From NCBI RefSeq assembly GCF_002216795.1, contig NZ_CP022316.1, forward strand, positions 248,001 through 312,000: a stretch of DNA of 64,000 nt. Direction: 5' to 3'. Source of the DNA: Brachybacterium avium. GTDB lineage: Bacteria; Actinomycetota; Actinomycetes; Actinomycetales; Dermabacteraceae. Positions 31,895-39,118 of this stretch are shown here, piece by piece; position 1 is the stretch's first letter, and each line of letters opens with the position of its first letter. The translations under genes were made by a program, and so were the position numbers. The notes beneath the pieces were generated by a model, which was given only the letters and a program-made list of their open reading frames with translations, searched no databases and had not been told where the DNA came from.

Positions 31895-32023
31895 CCCTCC
31901 AGCATGCCTCAGGATGCATCGCCCGGGGTGATGCCGGGGCCCGTGCCGCAACCGGGCATTCGCAGGAAATCGATGGCCGCACCGGTGGTGTTCGGCGACA
32001 CTGGGGGCGGAAGAGGTGACGAC

Positions 32024-32557
32024 ATGGCACAGGTCAGGGTCTTCAACCTGGGATACGACCCGGAGACGGGGATCGGCGAGCTCCTGCACACCACGACGGT
32101 GCGCCATGCCTTCGGGATGATCCGTCGCGAGGTCGCGGACCCGGTCGAGCTGACGATGCTCGGGGACCGCATCGTCCCCACCGCCCTCGAGCTCACCCGC
32201 GAGCTGAGCGGGGCCTGGGTGGAGGGTGCCGGCCAGCGCTCAGTCGGCTTCTCCTACCGGGCGGTCCACGAACGCGATCACTGGACCTGCGCGTACTGCG
32301 GTCGCAGCGTCTCGAAGACTCCTTCCTGCGAGGGCCTGCTGGCGACGGTCGACCACATCCTTCCCTCCTCCCGTGGCGGCGCCTCGAGCTGGACGAACCT
32401 GGTCTCGGCCTGCAAGGAGTGCAACAACCGCAAGGCGGATCGCACCCCCGAGGAGGCCGGGATGCTGCTGCGTGCGGAGCCCTATGATCCAGCCCACTCG
32501 TTTCGGGTGGCCGGGTATGCGCAAGGGCTTCCGCTCCTGATCCGCGGAGGAGCCTGA
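32024..32557 (+). CDS. HNH endonuclease
   Basis: This 177-residue protein has a C-terminal HNH nuclease domain with CAYC and KECN as the two zinc-binding Cys pairs, and the core TVDHILPSSRGGASSWTNLV with the His-Asn metal-binding residues. The N-terminal half (about 1-75) starts MAQVRVFNLGYDPETGIG and resembles the N-terminus of the widespread actinobacterial solo HNH proteins, in which a role in DNA repair or housekeeping is suspected but not shown. AGAGGTGA precedes the ATG. No restriction or phage genes adjoin it. Confidence 0.88.
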   Translation: MAQVRVFNLGYDPETGIGELLHTTTVRHAFGMIRREVADPVELTMLGDRIVPTALELTRELSGAWVEGAGQRSVGFSYRAVHERDHWTCAYCGRSVSKTPSCEGLLATVDHILPSSRGGASSWTNLVSACKECNNRKADRTPEEAGMLLRAEPYDPAHSFRVAGYAQGLPLLIRGGA

Positions 32558-32607: not shown

Positions 32608-32628
32608 GTTATCTCATCTGTGAGTTAC
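32608..32628. promoter_or_regulatory. Imperfect dyad at the start of the XRE-MurA gene, candidate autoregulatory operator
   Basis: The core CTCA-TCTG-TGAG is symmetric and is flanked by GTTAT on the left and TTAC on the right, giving near-symmetric arms of 8-9 bases. It runs into the -10 hexamer at 32626-32631. The downstream protein has its own helix-turn-helix domain, so self-repression is plausible. Confidence 0.45.
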
Positions 32629-32631
32629 GGT
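32626..32631 (+). promoter_or_regulatory. Putative leaderless -10 for the XRE-MurA gene
   Basis: TACGGT lies 6 nt before the ATG at 32638. It favours that ATG over the in-frame GTG at 32620. Confidence 0.5.
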
Positions 32632-32637
32632 CTCGAT

Positions 32638-34173
32638 ATGACTGAGAACGAGGACTACCTGGCACGGATCGGCACCCTGATCCGGGACGCCCGTCAGCAC
32701 TCCGGCCTCACCCAGGCTCAGCTCGCCACCGAGCTCGGCACGAGCCAGAGCGCGGTGAACCGCATCGAGAAGGGCCAGCAGAACCTCACGCTGGAGACCA
32801 TCTCCAAGATCGGCTCCGCCCTGGACTCCGAGCTCGTGGGGCTGGGCGGCCCTGGCCCCAGCCATCTGCGGGTCCACGGCGAGACCACCCTGTCCGGAGC
32901 GATCGACGTGAAGTCCTCGAAGAATGCGGGGGTCGCGCTGCTGTGCGCCTCGCTGCTGAACACCGGGACCACGGTGCTGCGCAAGGTCGCGCGCATCGAG
33001 GAGGTCAACCGGCTGCTCGAGGTGCTCACGTCCATCGGGGTGAGGGCGACCTGGCTGAACTCCGACAACGACCTCGAACTGCGCGTCCCCGCCACGCTCG
33101 ACCTCAGCTCGATCGATGCCGCGGCCGCCCGGCGCACCCGCTCGATCATCATGTTCCTGGGACCACTGCTGCATCGTGCAGGAGAGTTCCAGCTCCCCTA
33201 CGCCGGCGGCTGCGATCTGGGAACCCGCACCGTCGAGCCGCATCTGTCGGCTCTGCGTCATTTCGGGCTCGATGTCGTCGCGACCGATCACAACTACCAG
33301 GCCACCACCTCCGCGGTGACCGGGGCTCGGCGCCCGATCATCCTCACCGAGCGCGGTGACACCGTCACCGAGAACGCGCTGCTGGCGGCGGCGCTGTACG
33401 AGGGCGAGACCGTGATCCGCAACGCCAGCCCCAACTACATGGTCCAGGACCTGTGCTTCTTCCTCGAGAAGCTCGGAGTGGCCATCGAGGGCATCGGCAC
33501 CACCACCTTGCGGGTGCAGGGCAGGGCGCGGATCTCCACCGATGTGGACTACGCCCCCAGCGAGGACCCGATCGAGGCGATGAGCCTGATCTCCGCCGCG
33601 ATCGTGACCCGCTCGAGCATCACCGTGCGCCGGGTGCCGATCGAGTTCATGGAGATCGAGCTGGCGCTGCTGGAGGAGATGGGCCTGCGCTATGACTGCT
33701 CCGCGGAGTACATGGCGGAGAACGGCAAGACCCGCCTGGTGGACGTCACCACCCATCCCTCGGATCTGAGAGCGCCCATCGACAAGATCCACCCGATGCC
33801 CTTCCCCGGGCTGAACATCGACAACCTCCCGTTCTTCGCGGTGATCGCCGCGACCGCAGAGGGGCAGACGATGCTGCACGACTGGGTGTACGAGAACCGG
33901 GCCATCTACCTCACCGAGCTCACCAAGCTCGGAGCCAACGTGAAGCTCATGGACCCGCATCGGGTGCTCATCGAGGGCCCGACCCGGTGGAGCGGCGCCG
34001 AGCTGGTGTGCCCGCCGGCGCTGCGCCCGGCGGTGGTGATCCTGCTGGCGATGCTCGCCGCGAAAGGCACCTCCATGCTGCGCAACGTCTACGTCATCAA
34101 CCGCGGATACGAGGACCTGGCGGCGCGGCTGAACAAGCTCGGCGCGCGGATCGAGACCTTCCGGGACATCTGA
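32638..34173 (+). CDS. XRE helix-turn-helix domain fused to a MurA-type enolpyruvyl transferase
   Basis: This 511-residue fusion has residues about 8-65 as an XRE-type HTH (LTQAQLATELGTSQSAVNRIE), followed by an EPSP-synthase-fold domain (about 78-511) like UDP-GlcNAc enolpyruvyl transferase. Key MurA residues are visible: Lys-Asn in SSKNAG, the fosfomycin-target Cys and the following Arg in GGCDLGTR, and the late Arg in PPALRPAV. The general-acid Asp region (FPTDMQ in Escherichia coli) reads FPGLNIDNLPF, so that part has diverged. It may be a regulated second MurA or an enzyme with a changed substrate. Proteins of this architecture occur in other actinobacteria; I know of no settled function. 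Confidence 0.85.
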   Translation: MTENEDYLARIGTLIRDARQHSGLTQAQLATELGTSQSAVNRIEKGQQNLTLETISKIGSALDSELVGLGGPGPSHLRVHGETTLSGAIDVKSSKNAGVALLCASLLNTGTTVLRKVARIEEVNRLLEVLTSIGVRATWLNSDNDLELRVPATLDLSSIDAAAARRTRSIIMFLGPLLHRAGEFQLPYAGGCDLGTRTVEPHLSALRHFGLDVVATDHNYQATTSAVTGARRPIILTERGDTVTENALLAAALYEGETVIRNASPNYMVQDLCFFLEKLGVAIEGIGTTTLRVQGRARISTDVDYAPSEDPIEAMSLISAAIVTRSSITVRRVPIEFMEIELALLEEMGLRYDCSAEYMAENGKTRLVDVTTHPSDLRAPIDKIHPMPFPGLNIDNLPFFAVIAATAEGQTMLHDWVYENRAIYLTELTKLGANVKLMDPHRVLIEGPTRWSGAELVCPPALRPAVVILLAMLAAKGTSMLRNVYVINRGYEDLAARLNKLGARIETFRDI

Positions 34174-34232: not shown

Positions 34233-36146
34233 CTACGCCCCGACCTCCACCCGCGTCCGCGCCAGGATCTGCTTCGCCGCGACGTCCGCGCCGGCCAGCA
34301 GCGGGGAGGGCACGCCCGGGGTGGCCCCGATCGCGGAGCCGGGCTGTGTCGAGGCAGCAGGGATGCCGAGCACCACCACGGACTCGTCCACGCTGCCGTC
34401 GGCGGCGATCAGGTTGTGGCCGCTGGTCACGTCCTCGGAGAGCTCGGCCCGGGTGGCCTCCATGCTGTGGGTCTGCACGCCGTCGACGGTGTGGATGCGG
34501 GCCCGCCCGGTCTCCAGCAGTGCGCGCAGCAGCGGGTCGCCGGTGCGCGGGATCTTCCCCTTGGACATGCGGGTCTCCAGCAGCACGGCCGAGGTGACCA
34601 CGCGGCCGGTCAGCGGTGAGGCAGCCCGGAAGGCTCCCGCGGATTCGTCGGCCTCGATCACCATCTCGGGACCGATCAGCTCGATGATCCCGGCCTCGAT
34701 CAGGGCCAGGACCAGCCGCACCCGGTCGGCGGGCGGGCCGGAGGCGAGCGCCAGGGAGTCGCCGTCGAACCAGCCGAGCACGTCGCGGGCGAGGGACGCT
34801 CCGGTGAACGCGCCGCGGCCGGTCAGCCGCCCGACACGTCGGCGCAGTGCCCCCATCGCGCCGTTGACAGCGGCGCGCGGGTGCCGCCAGGGGTCGGACA
34901 GCGAACCCAGCTCATCGGCGATCAGTCGCCGCACCAGGCGGGCCCAGTCCCGTGCGGAGACGGGCCGGCCGCGGGTGGGCCGGTGCAGCTCCTCGAGCGC
35001 CCAGCGCCAGCGCGGGTCGATGATCGACCGTTCGAGGACGATGTCGACCTCGTCGGCCGTGATGGCCGCATCGAGTCCGGCGAACCAGTCGCCGTGCACG
35101 GACTCCGGGGCGAGCTCCTCCAGGGCCTCGAGGTAGGCGCGGGCGAACTCACGGGCGAGGATCGGCCACACCTCCTCGGCGAAGTCCACGTCGGTGCGCT
35201 GCTCGAGCTCGGCGAACCACTCATCGCGCGCCCAGGCGGGGGCGAAGGGCCGCACCGAGCGGCCGCCCTCAGGCTTGGCACGGTACGGGATGCCCCGCCG
35301 GGAGCCGACGACCAGCTGCGGCTCGCGGCCGCTGGGCAGGTAGCGCAGGCGCCCGTGAGGGTCTCCCTCCACCGGTGCAACGCTGCCACCCCAGTCGGCG
35401 ACCAGCTGCCCGATGACGTCGAAGAAGTTCGCCCCGAGGCCGCGCACCAGCACCGTCTCCCCCGCCGGCAGTCCCGTGTACTCCCGCTCGGCGGGCATGC
35501 CGGGCTCTGCGTAGCGCAGCGAGAAGCGCTCGGCGAACGCCGCCAGCGCCGAGACGTCGGCGTCCCGTTCGGACTGGACCATGCCCTGGGCGAGCACCAC
35601 GGTGGGTGCGGCGAGTCGGCGACCGTCCTCGAGGACCACCGCGGTGTCCTCGCCGTCACGGTCGAGGTCGACGGCGCGGGCCACGATCTCGGTGAGCTCG
35701 ACCCTGCCGCTCGCGATCGCGGCGTCGAGCTGGTCGCGGAAGTACACGCCCTGCAGTCGGCGGGTGGGGAAGTCGGCGCCGGTCAGTGCCGAGGCCTCCT
35801 GGAGCACCCACTGACCCGCCGGGTGCCCGCCGTCGGCCCGGACCTGGCGGGCCCAGTCCACCAGGTCCGGGCCGGGCGCGGCGGGGCCGCTCATCGGGGT
35901 GGAATCGTCGGGGTGGACGGTGGTGGCATCGGCCTGGGTGTTGTTGAGGTACTGGGCGGGCTGATCGAGGCGCCAGGTCGCCCCGGGGCCGATCGCGAGG
36001 GCGTCGATGATCACCAACCGCATCGGGGCGCCGCCGAGTACGGCGCTGCGGGCAGCGGTGCGCAGCACGGTCGCCACGCCGCGAGGACCACCGCCGACGA
36101 TGACGGCGTCGAAGTGCGCAGCCTCCGAAGGAACCGTCCCGTTCAT
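34233..36146 (-). CDS. FAD/NAD(P)-binding protein of the metal-chelate operon
   Basis: This 637-residue soluble protein has the N-terminal motif FDAVIVGGGPRGVATVLR, typical of the FAD-NAD(P)-binding family (PF13454-like) that is related to N-hydroxylating and Baeyer-Villiger monooxygenases. GPGATWRLDQPAQYLNN follows, and VLVRGLGANFFDVI may be the second nucleotide-binding site. The C-terminal 200 residues carry no motif I know. The substrate is not known. It is the last gene of the importer operon and overlaps the ATPase gene by 4 nt (ATGA), so it is probably made together with the importer. It may reduce or oxidise the imported chelate, or help synthesise one. Confidence 0.8.
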   Translation of the reverse strand: MNGTVPSEAAHFDAVIVGGGPRGVATVLRTAARSAVLGGAPMRLVIIDALAIGPGATWRLDQPAQYLNNTQADATTVHPDDSTPMSGPAAPGPDLVDWARQVRADGGHPAGQWVLQEASALTGADFPTRRLQGVYFRDQLDAAIASGRVELTEIVARAVDLDRDGEDTAVVLEDGRRLAAPTVVLAQGMVQSERDADVSALAAFAERFSLRYAEPGMPAEREYTGLPAGETVLVRGLGANFFDVIGQLVADWGGSVAPVEGDPHGRLRYLPSGREPQLVVGSRRGIPYRAKPEGGRSVRPFAPAWARDEWFAELEQRTDVDFAEEVWPILAREFARAYLEALEELAPESVHGDWFAGLDAAITADEVDIVLERSIIDPRWRWALEELHRPTRGRPVSARDWARLVRRLIADELGSLSDPWRHPRAAVNGAMGALRRRVGRLTGRGAFTGASLARDVLGWFDGDSLALASGPPADRVRLVLALIEAGIIELIGPEMVIEADESAGAFRAASPLTGRVVTSAVLLETRMSKGKIPRTGDPLLRALLETGRARIHTVDGVQTHSMEATRAELSEDVTSGHNLIAADGSVDESVVVLGIPAASTQPGSAIGATPGVPSPLLAGADVAAKQILARTRVEVGA

Positions 36147-36958
36147 GAGGCCACGAGCTCCCCGAGCCGGGTGCCGGTGCGGGTGATGCCGGCCTCGTCC
36201 ACGCGGGGCCGGACCTCGACGGCGCCGTCGCGGGCCGCGACCTCGACATCGACCTCGTACACGCCGCGCAGCATCTCGGCACGCAGTGCCTCCGCCGGGG
36301 TGCCGTCGGCGACGAGATGCCCGCCGTGCAGGACGATCACCTGGTCGCAGTAGCGAGCGGCGTGGTTCAGATCGTGGATCGCGATGAGGGCGCTGATGCC
36401 CTCCTCGCGGGTGATCTGGCGGACCAGCTGCAAGGTCTCGATCTGGTAGCGCAGATCCAGCGCGGAGGTGGGTTCGTCCAGCAGCAGCAGCCGGGTGTCC
36501 TGGGCGAGGGCCCGGGCGATGAGGGCCCGCTGCTGCTGCCCCCCGGAGAGCTCCGACATGGACTGCTCGGCGATCTCCGCCAGCCCCATCCGCACGATCG
36601 CATCCTCCACGGTGGCGCGGTCCTGTGCCCGGGGAGCGAGCCCGAAGTGCGGGGTGCGGCCCAGCATCACGGCCTCGCGGACGGTGAGGTCGAAGGGCGC
36701 ATCCCCGGCCTGCGGGACGTAGCCGACCACCTTCGCCAGCTCGCGGCGGCCCAGCGAAGCGGTCCTGCGACCCTCGACGGTCACGGTGCCGGCCTTGGCG
36801 CGGTGCACGCCGGCGATCGCCTTGACCAGGGTGGACTTGCCGGAGCCATTGGGGCCCAGCAGGGCGCAGAACGTCCCGGAGGCGACCTCGAAGCTGACCT
36901 CATCGAGGATCCGGCGGGTCCCGTAGGCAAAGGAGAGGCGGTCGACGGTGAGGCTCAC
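36143..36958 (-). CDS. ABC transporter ATPase, ferric siderophore type (FecE/FepC-like)
   Basis: This 271-residue ATPase energises import of an iron-chelate or cobalamin-like compound. Walker A is GPNGSGKS at 35-42, the signature is LSGGQQQRALIARALAQD, Walker B is LLLLDEPTSALD, and the H-loop is IAIHDLNHAARYCD. VVGYVPQAGDAPFDLTVREAV is typical of the FepC/BtuD group. It overlaps the permease gene by 4 nt (ATGA) and the FAD-protein gene by 4 nt, so all three are coupled in translation. Confidence 0.95.
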   Translation of the reverse strand: MSLTVDRLSFAYGTRRILDEVSFEVASGTFCALLGPNGSGKSTLVKAIAGVHRAKAGTVTVEGRRTASLGRRELAKVVGYVPQAGDAPFDLTVREAVMLGRTPHFGLAPRAQDRATVEDAIVRMGLAEIAEQSMSELSGGQQQRALIARALAQDTRLLLLDEPTSALDLRYQIETLQLVRQITREEGISALIAIHDLNHAARYCDQVIVLHGGHLVADGTPAEALRAEMLRGVYEVDVEVAARDGAVEVRPRVDEAGITRTGTRLGELVAS

Positions 36959-38054
36959 TTCAGGGTGTTCCTTCGGGTCAGGATGAGGTAGATGAACACG
37001 GGGCCGCCGATGAAGGCGACCACGATGCCGACGGGGACCACGGCGGGGGCGAGGACCGTGCGGCCCACCGCGTCGGCGACCAACAGCAGCAGTCCACCGG
37101 ACAGCGCCGCGAAAGGCAACAGATGGCGGTGATCGGCGCCGATCGCGAGGCGTGCGATGTGGGGGCCCACCAGGCCGACGAAGCCGATGATCCCGCAGAA
37201 GGAGACGACCACTGCGGCGAGGGCGACGGCCAGGGCGATCAGACCGATCCGCACCGGGCCCACGTTCACGCCGAAGCTGCGGGCCGCGTCGTCACCGGCG
37301 AAGGCGATGGCGTTGAGGTCCTTGGAGAAGAACAGCGTCACCGGGATCGCCAGCAGGGTGATCACCCCGACGATCAGCACATCGGACCACAGCGCGTCGT
37401 TCACCGACCCGAAGGTCCAGCGGATGATCGCCTGCAGGGTGTTCTCGTTCGCGGTGAACTGGAGTGCGGAGGTGAGGGCCTCGAAGATCTGGGTCATCGC
37501 GATGCCGAGCAGCAGCAGGGTGGCCACTGCCATGCGGCGGGCGGTGGCGATCCCGAGCACCACGGCGGAGACGGCCAGTGCCATGACCATGGCTCCGGCG
37601 ATGGTCGCCCAGGCCGGGAGCTGCTGGGTGCCGGCCAGGGTGATCACCAGCGCCGCGCCGAAGGCGGCGGCCGGGGAGACCCCGAGGGTGAACGGGCTGA
37701 CCAGGGGGTTCCGCAGCAGCCCCTGCATGAGCACACCGGAGACGGACAGCGCCGCTCCGGCGGTGAAGGCCAGCAGCACCCGCGGCAGCCGCAGCTGGGT
37801 GATCACCGCGTAGGTGGAGGCGAACTCGGCGCTGATGGTGCCGCCGAGCAGGCTCACCCGCAGCGAATGGAGCACGTCGCCCATCCCCACCCCGGCGGTG
37901 CCGATCGTCACCGCTGCGACCAGGGCCAGAGCCGACAGCACGAGTCCGGCGGCGAGGACGAGGAGCTTGCGGCGCTCATGGGCGCGGACGGTCCGGGCGC
38001 CGTTGCTCTCGGGGCCTCGGGCGCGGGAGCGGGACGCTCAAGGGTGGCGGTCAT
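36955..38054 (-). CDS. FecCD-family permease of the metal-chelate importer (apparent single-base frameshift)
   Basis: This inner-membrane permease has about ten helices and the family motifs GVLMQGLLRNPLVSPFTLGVSP, FAGDDAARSFGVNVG and FCGIIGFVGLVGPHIARL. The main frame begins only at a GTG at 37941, inside what should be the first membrane helix. The native start is the ATG at 38054, which overlaps the substrate-binding protein stop as ATGA, but it is in another frame. Adding one base to the four-base run at 38011-38014 joins them as PAPAPEAPESNGARTV and gives 367 whole codons. One polypeptide probably serves as a homodimer, since no second permease gene is present. Confidence 0.88.
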
Positions 38055-39118
38055 GAGGACGGACCCTGCACATAGTCGGTCGGGGCGGACAGCTCGGTGT
38101 CCTGGAACTCGGTGACCCAGCGGGTGAGGTACGCCTCGGGATCCACGCCGTCCATCTCCTGGGGGTGCAGCCAGGTACCGAGGTAGAGAGCGCCGATCGA
38201 CTTGCCGAGCGCACTGGTGGCCCAGCCGTTCGCGATCGCGACGTTCCCCTGGGCCAGTGCGGTCATGCCGTCCCAGCCGGGCCGATCGGCGATATCCGTG
38301 CGGAGGGCGTCGAAGCGGTCGACGGGCTCGGCGGAGGGCTCGAACTCGTGGAACACGAACTGCGGATCACGCAGCACCACCTCGGCGGGGTCGACGGTCA
38401 GCTCCTCCTGGGCGTCGCCGCCCGCGGCGTCCTCGAAGATGTTCGCCCCGCCGGCGGCCAGGATCATCGCGTGGAAGCCGGAGCCGGGCAGGGTGGTCAG
38501 GTAGGGCTCGACGGTCTCGAGATAGACGGGGACCGGCTCGACGTCCGCAAGCCGCTCCTGCAGGATCCCTGCGATCTCGCCGCGGAAGTCCAGCACGGTC
38601 TGTGCGGTGTCCTCCTGGCCGAACACCTGGCCGAGCAGGGTGAGGGTCTCCTCGACGACCTCGGTGTCCCAGGCGGTGGCGACGATCAGCGGGATGCCGA
38701 AGGCCTCGAGCTGCTCGGCGGCCTCCTGCCAGACGGCGTTGCGCGGCATCACGACGACGTCGGGCTCGAGCTCGGCGATCGCCTCGTAGTTCAGCTGGTC
38801 CAGGCCTTCGGCGATGATCTGGTCCTCGCCGAGGTCGAGGTAGGGCAGGCGTTCCAGCGAGGCCCGGTCCACGCCGACGACGCGGTCGCCGGCGCCGATG
38901 GCGCGCAGGAACTCGTTGGTGTAGCTGTTCAGGACGACGGCCTTCTGGGCAGGGCCGGGCAGGACGACCTCGCGGTCCTGGTCGTCGATGATCGTCAGCT
39001 GCTCGGCCGCCTCGGCCTGGCTCTCAACGGTGACGTCTCCGCAGGCGGCGAGGCCGAGGACGGGCAGGGAGGCGAGGGCAGCGCCGAGCACGGTGCGGCG
39101 GCGGAATGCAGTGGTCAT
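38051..39118 (-). CDS. Iron-chelate ABC transporter substrate-binding lipoprotein
   Basis: This 355-residue protein has a lipoprotein signal: RRR at 6-8, a hydrophobic stretch, and the lipobox LGLAAC with Cys26 as the lipid-attached residue. The RRRTVLG start also resembles a Tat signal. The mature part is a FecB/FhuD-like periplasmic-binding fold with ITIIDDQDR-type and PDVVVMPRN segments and the long central helix. It captures a ferric siderophore or similar chelate outside the membrane for the permease. The stop overlaps the permease ATG, and the CMD-like gene lies 19 nt upstream. Confidence 0.92.
   Translation of the reverse strand: MTTAFRRRTVLGAALASLPVLGLAACGDVTVESQAEAAEQLTIIDDQDREVVLPGPAQKAVVLNSYTNEFLRAIGAGDRVVGVDRASLERLPYLDLGEDQIIAEGLDQLNYEAIAELEPDVVVMPRNAVWQEAAEQLEAFGIPLIVATAWDTEVVEETLTLLGQVFGQEDTAQTVLDFRGEIAGILQERLADVEPVPVYLETVEPYLTTLPGSGFHAMILAAGGANIFEDAAGGDAQEELTVDPAEVVLRDPQFVFHEFEPSAEPVDRFDALRTDIADRPGWDGMTALAQGNVAIANGWATSALGKSIGALYLGTWLHPQEMDGVDPEAYLTRWVTEFQDTELSAPTDYVQGPSS

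Follow-up and report, generated by a model that had tools for sequence, protein, structure and literature searches.

MurA catalyses the committed step of peptidoglycan synthesis and is the target of fosfomycin, and its residues Lys22, Asn23, Arg91, Cys115, Arg120, Asp305, Arg331 and Arg397 (Escherichia coli numbering) have catalytic roles. In ‘trigger enzymes’, among them PutA, BirA and NadR, an enzyme and a DNA-binding repressor reside in one polypeptide chain; to our knowledge, none acts at the committed peptidoglycan step. NikO, an enolpyruvyl transferase of Streptomyces tendae, shares the MurA fold and is a diverged relative with another substrate and no helix-turn-helix (HTH). On the side of DNA recognition, a point of comparison is HipB, an antitoxin and autorepressor that is a free small protein of the XRE fold, whose operator is TATCC-N8-GGATA (PMC3376134; like the other papers cited by PMC number for their content, drawn on here in excerpt).

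In Streptomyces, one MurA gene, murA2 (SCO5998), adjoins SCO5999 (AcnA) and is a predicted DmdR1 target (PMC12161575); BldM-WhiI also targets it and leaves a footprint there (PMC4125116), it plausibly belongs to the WhiI-specific targets (PMC11005364), and it is SigB-dependent (PMC8346170). As argued below, this is the same gene as the one described here, and in the excerpted sources it figures so far only as a MurA and as a target of regulators. The terms ‘helix-turn-helix’, ‘XRE’ and ‘HTH’ are absent from the main texts of these four papers, and the excerpts of PMC4255298 and PMC9739823 contain nothing on the gene. A survey of titles and abstract openings gave no account of an HTH fusion or operator of MurA2, although most subscription journals lie outside its scope and a report elsewhere is possible. 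What was already known is thus murA2 as a MurA and as a target of other regulators; what is new is the HTH fusion with a candidate self-operator, in the manner of a trigger enzyme.

The locus was found in a window of 64 kb, by which is meant the whole stretch of Brachybacterium avium DNA analysed. A profile search places two domains in one frame, HTH_3 (residues 15-66, E 2e-14) and EPSP_synthase PF00275 (residues 80-495, E 2e-45), which confirms the fusion of an XRE HTH to a MurA-type enzyme proposed in an initial annotation of the letters. That annotation began the feature at 32608; it starts at 32610 with the dyad and the protein at 32638 (Table 1), an alternative GTG start at 32620 falling within the dyad.

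Table 1. Features of the HTH-MurA locus, in positions of the window
Feature	Position	Strand	Description
Candidate operator dyad	32610..32627	.	TATCTCATCTGTGAGTTA; family consensus TATCTCA-N4-TGAGATA
-10 box	32626..32631	+	TACGGT (TANNNT); its first TA is the last TA of the dyad; ends 6 nt before ATG
HTH-MurA gene	32638..34173	+	511 aa and stop; ATG start at 32638
XRE/HTH_3 domain	32671..32835	+	residues 12-66; HTH_3 profile match 15-66, conservation, predicted helices in 6-62
Recognition helix		+	residues 35-42, TSQSAVNR; within the XRE/HTH_3 domain of HTH-MurA
Linker	32827..32856	+	residues 64-73; pLDDT <50
MurA-type enolpyruvyl transferase domain	32866..34170	+	residues 77-511; profile, alignment and fold matches

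The HTH head reaches 53.8 bits, above the PF01381 gathering score of 23 bits, and stays below the couple_hipB TIGR03070 cut-off (54.1 against 71.65 bits), for which reason a toxin-antitoxin reading of its HipB matches was rejected; a HipA was not noticed either. The likeness to HipB in XRE fold is only distant (E 2e-5) and HipB membership is not claimed, but the operators, TATCC-N8-GGATA and TATCT-N8-AGATA, have the same layout; HipB is free, whereas the HTH described here is fused to an enzyme. The enzyme part passes the PRK09369 cut-off of the MurA subfamily (330.8 against 297 bits), falls short of the TIGR01072 cut-off of the MurA equivalog (315.8 against 392.7 bits) and remains below the TIGR01356 cut-off of AroA (69.2 against 287.25 bits). 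An AlphaFold2 model (pLDDT 84.5, with 41 sequences as input) consists of HTH helices in residues 6-62, a low-confidence linker at 64-73, predicted on this basis to be flexible, and a MurA-like body. When compared with known structures, the body resembles MurA (Z 39-44) and NikO (Z 38.9) more than AroA (Z at most 36). In sequence, NikO is the poorer match, at 93.9 bits compared with 182.1 for the top-scoring MurA. With HTH-free MurA, the protein has in common the fold, the catalytic residues and a score above the PRK09369 cut-off, and it differs by its N-terminal HTH, its candidate operator, an altered Cys loop and the replacement of Asp369 by Ala.

Upstream of the gene in B. avium, at about 31958-32557 (+), lies an HNH endonuclease gene of the HNH/HNH_5 type (E 6e-13), the HNH part of which also matches IscB/Cas9 models far below their cut-offs. 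The convergent downstream neighbour (34233-36146, -) encodes an FAD-NAD(P)-binding protein (NAD_binding_9, E 1.3e-32), and the region beyond it (36143-39118, -) looks, as judged by eye, like an iron-type ABC importer.

A survey of 296 genomes sampled from the class finds HTH-MurA in 86 of them (E <= 1e-100), spread over 20 of 114 genera. Since 85 of the 86 matches start at query residue 1-9, the HTH is included in them; the remaining one (G567) is a fragment covering 208-511, and one match (G139) stops at 389 because the gene is frameshifted. No complete member without an HTH was found among the 86 carriers, and the fusion represents an ancient family within the actinobacteria. The best 80 named loci, taken from a larger number, include Brachybacterium, Aeromicrobium, Nocardioides, Mumia, Streptomyces, Kitasatospora, Actinacidiphila, Nonomuraea, Piscicoccus and Pedococcus; the closest proteins among these 80 are from Brachybacterium (96, 90 and 87% identity), and the Streptomyces orthologs, at 72-74% identity, lie beside aconitase. 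In loci of the Streptomyces type, the divergent neighbour of HTH-MurA is aconitase, as named by sequence and synteny, which identifies the Streptomyces ortholog as murA2, SCO5998 (also vnz_28735 and sven5810). No neighbour cluster is common to the HTH-MurA loci of all genera, and a conserved operon partner was discarded; the clusters read, with gene names assigned by eye, are not the same in loci of the Nocardioidaceae type as in those of the Streptomyces type. An origin from phages was likewise set aside, all 41 phage records showing <60% identity; in the 20 phage matches listed, the alignment begins no earlier than about residue 61-79 and leaves the HTH out. As for plasmids, 2 of 138 records reach 60-80% identity, both on replicons of 2.8 and 11.9 megabases where the gene is unannotated, and this origin was also rejected.

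The near-symmetric site that the initial annotation had placed over the -10 element corresponds to the dyad of Table 1, which overlaps TACGGT by its TA. At a threshold of at least 12 of 14 positions, TATCTCA-N4-TGAGATA lies a short way ahead of the start codon in 95/96 orthologs (own gene counted), the only one without it being the frameshifted L019. Of the TANNNT -10 box, the TA, common to the dyad end, is present in 95/95 and the final T in 94/95 orthologs, and in 88/95 a gap of 6-7 nt separates the box from the start codon; because the box ends so close to the start codon, the mRNA is probably leaderless. The -35 element is weak, at least 4 of 6 positions of TTGACA being found in 21/95 loci compared with 7/95 at a control place. 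Thirty further loci outside the consensus set, some of which may belong to the same species as named loci, all display the dyad, with at least 11 of its 14 positions matched, and a TANNNT box (30/30 each). In three related Streptomyces loci (L069, L072 and L076), a second dyad of the HTH-MurA type, AATCTCATATCCGAGATA (12/14), is seen ~150 nt upstream of the HTH-MurA start, between acnA and murA2.

Chance as the origin of the dyad is ruled out by shuffled controls and by background positions. The window was searched with TATCTCANNNNTGAGWTA at up to 2 mismatches, a pattern whose W allows the local variant, and 32610-32627 was its sole match, with 0 matches in 100 dinucleotide shuffles; 200 shuffled dyads recovered 0 loci, and of the 946,970 remaining positions in the first locus set, 33 had 12 matches and none had 13-14. 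In the complete genome of B. avium, the dyad before HTH-MurA is the best site (1 mismatch to the family consensus), followed by four places with 2 mismatches, of which the three examined sit inside long open frames. An exact copy of the dyad is found in 18 of the 296 class genomes, once in each and in all 18 directly upstream of the HTH-MurA gene; all 18 are among the 86 carriers (hypergeometric P 5e-11, uncorrected for kinship), and many carriers are absent from this count because their dyads are near-exact. When 1 mismatch was allowed in 19 genomes, 11 had a site only at the HTH-MurA gene, five had extra sites too, one (G139) had only other sites and two (G008 and G182) had none. A wider regulon was rejected after these searches, and the link between dyad and HTH-MurA gene is near-exclusive.

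Which protein reads the dyad can be approached through the recognition helix, where T35, S36, Q37, S38, A39 and R42 are each conserved at 99% or more in 94 orthologs. A single helix is changed at 36 as well as at 39 (S36T/A39V, giving TTQSV); it belongs to L039 from Aeromicrobium sp. Root495, the dyad of which is the only one altered alike in both halves (TATCGCA/TATCGCA). Among the 30 further loci, the sole two T35S helices (L216 and L223, from one family) coincide with the sole two AACTCA left arms. At L019 (genome G139), the helix has diverged and the dyad is absent. The HTH-MurA gene at L019 is frameshifted, with matches to 5-389 and 372-511 in different frames, reflecting either decay of this copy or an artefact of sequencing. 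All cases of covariation agree in indicating that MurA reads the dyad through its own HTH, though they are few and partly related.

Regarding the enzyme, Cys192 and Asp395 of HTH-MurA correspond to Cys115 and Asp305 of E. coli MurA, and Ala461 to Asp369, at an overall identity of 27% to the E. coli protein and 31% to the own MurA1. The eight catalytic residues listed at the outset are kept in 94/94 orthologs. The initial annotation had described the catalytic Cys and Arg as kept and the general-acid loop as changed: Cys115 and Arg120 are kept and the Cys loop does differ from that of E. coli MurA, at 116, 117, 119, 121 (Pro121 to Thr), 123 and 124, but Cys115 itself stands. Asp369 is replaced by Ala and Val163-Gly164 by Asp-Thr in 94/94 orthologs, and Ser162 by Gly in 93/94, so that the substrate contacts should be unlike those of E. 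coli MurA; a change at 369 is tolerated in E. coli, where Asp369Asn is reported from clinical isolates (PMC4790336). In 14 MurAs of other bacteria (L020-L033), the Cys115 site is occupied by Asp throughout, and the HTH-MurAs and the own MurA1 keep Cys.

The second, HTH-free MurA that the initial annotation had suggested looking for exists in the B. avium genome: L002 retains Cys115 and scores 418.7 against the TIGR01072 cut-off of 392.7, and the AroA of the genome is L001 (TIGR01356, 350.3 bits). The situation is different in a Nocardioidaceae-like family, where 48 of 51 genomes carry HTH-MurA, a few as contig-end fragments, the three others being fragmented assemblies of 82-93% completeness. 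A second MurA-type match is found in 13 of these 48 carriers and none in 35, eight of which (G214, G448, G481, G489, G659, G670, G679 and G694, each a single contig of 97-100% completeness) have exactly two PF00275 genes. The other PF00275 gene is an AroA above the cut-off in the five genomes tested, namely G214, G448, G679 and G670 of the eight, plus G461; the sole MurA of G214 scores 300.4 with TIGR01072 (below the cut-off) and 317.6 with PRK09369 (above it). Among 16 named genomes, four from Brachybacterium have three PF00275 genes, four others have four, and eight have only two: Aeromicrobium sp. Root344, A. sp. 9AM and A. piscarium, together with Nocardioides sp. Soil774, N. potassii, N. 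sp. SLBN-35, N. halotolerans and Piscicoccus intestinalis. MurB_C is present in 19/19 genomes, namely in that of B. avium and in 18 that have two PF00275 genes. Being the sole MurA homologue found in the eight single-contig genomes, HTH-MurA is probably catalytically active, and with no other homologue found in many genomes it is hardly a mere sensor.

The explanation that fits best, and which is considered likely, is that of a working MurA joined to an HTH that represses its own, probably leaderless, transcription via a dedicated 18-bp operator. The MurA part would convert UDP-GlcNAc and PEP into enolpyruvyl-UDP-GlcNAc, and the XRE head, on its flexible linker, would bind the single 18-bp operator, presumably as a dimer. 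Since the dyad runs into the -10 box, such a dimer should exclude RNA polymerase, hence autorepression. Control of the own gene, also part of the initial annotation, is well supported at the sequence level by a dyad at the promoter, exact copies found only there in 296 genomes and helix covariation, and HTH-MurA thus very probably governs its own production; DNA binding, dimerization, repression rather than activation and enzyme activity are what we infer. Weighing against this explanation are the score below the MurA equivalog cut-off, the replacement of Asp369 and of Ser162-Val163-Gly164, a related dyad before aconitase in Streptomyces-type loci, the extra sites in five of 19 genomes, the weak -35 element and the small number of covariation cases.

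Several rival explanations have to be weighed against this autorepressing MurA. The dyad might be read by another regulator, for instance a TamR-like member of the MarR family or an unfused protein of the XRE/HipB type, with the HTH of MurA used otherwise. In loci of the Streptomyces type, a related dyad, TATCTCGATGTCGAGATA, lies 27-149 nt upstream of aconitase, and its two outer hexamers, TATCTC and GAGATA, are those of the HTH-MurA dyad; it precedes acnA in 26/26 loci that have it on the read strand (in the range L062-L112; L011 and L154 are one place), and we take it to be a TamR site. Another regulator could therefore read similar sites, TamR is reported to repress aconitase in S. coelicolor (PMC5487221), and BldM-WhiI footprints exist on murA2 (PMC4125116). 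However, position 7 is A in 95/95 HTH-MurA dyads and G in TATCTCGATGTCGAGATA, and a search of the B. avium genome at up to 2 mismatches from the HTH-MurA family consensus found no site of the latter type, so that TamR is no explanation for the family-wide dyad; the restriction of exact dyads to the HTH-MurA gene over 296 genomes and the covariation of helix and dyad also speak against a foreign reader, which is judged unlikely, TamR cross-talk in Streptomyces being possible. A slightly less probable proposal still is a pseudo-enzyme, whose non-catalytic MurA fold binds a UDP-sugar or PEP on behalf of the HTH. It would account for the changes at Asp369 (to Ala), Ser162-Val163-Gly164 (to Gly-Asp-Thr) and Pro121 (to Thr), for the score below the MurA equivalog cut-off and for the regular MurA in the own genome, but it conflicts with the eight catalytic residues kept in 94/94 orthologs, with the many near-complete genomes in which HTH-MurA is the only MurA homologue found and with the tolerance of a change at 369 in E. 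coli (PMC4790336). That the protein is a MurA isozyme of the usual kind whose HTH is a mere vestige, as its MurA fold (Z 39-44) and the second MurA of Streptomyces and Brachybacterium could suggest, is very improbable given a nearly invariant recognition helix and a dyad kept across genera.

The remaining question is whether the autorepressing MurA responds to ligands. Plain autorepression without ligand control, in which the HTH only holds the amount of enzyme constant and DNA binding is independent of the active site, is a narrower version of the best explanation and stands just short of an even chance: only one conserved target operator is evident and the low pLDDT of the linker predicts flexibility, but the obligate fusion (no complete HTH-free member in 86 carriers) suggests coupling without proving it. 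The wider version, held slightly more tentatively, is that HTH-MurA may be a ligand-responsive transcription factor, in which occupancy of the active site by UDP-GlcNAc and PEP, by UDP-MurNAc with the PEP-cysteine adduct or by fosfomycin would switch the HTH on or off the promoter. An effect of occupancy on DNA binding is only proposed here, and putative control by a UDP-sugar, PEP, UDP-MurNAc or fosfomycin is plausible. Because MurA structures with UDP-MurNAc and the PEP-cysteine adduct (3swd, 3su9 and 8d84) are among the matches to the body of the model, product feedback via the active site is a natural proposal; another UDP-GlcNAc sensor is GlmR (PMC6171935).

For the family, the dyad kept from Brachybacterium to Streptomyces adds an unrecognised candidate operator to the studied murA2 promoter of Streptomyces. 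If HTH-MurA is indeed its own repressor, one protein and one short DNA fragment could test the balance between wall-precursor supply and demand, and inhibition of the enzyme could directly alter the expression of HTH-MurA. Under ligand control, flux through the first step of wall synthesis would set the amount of the enzyme, also in those organisms where HTH-MurA is the only MurA.
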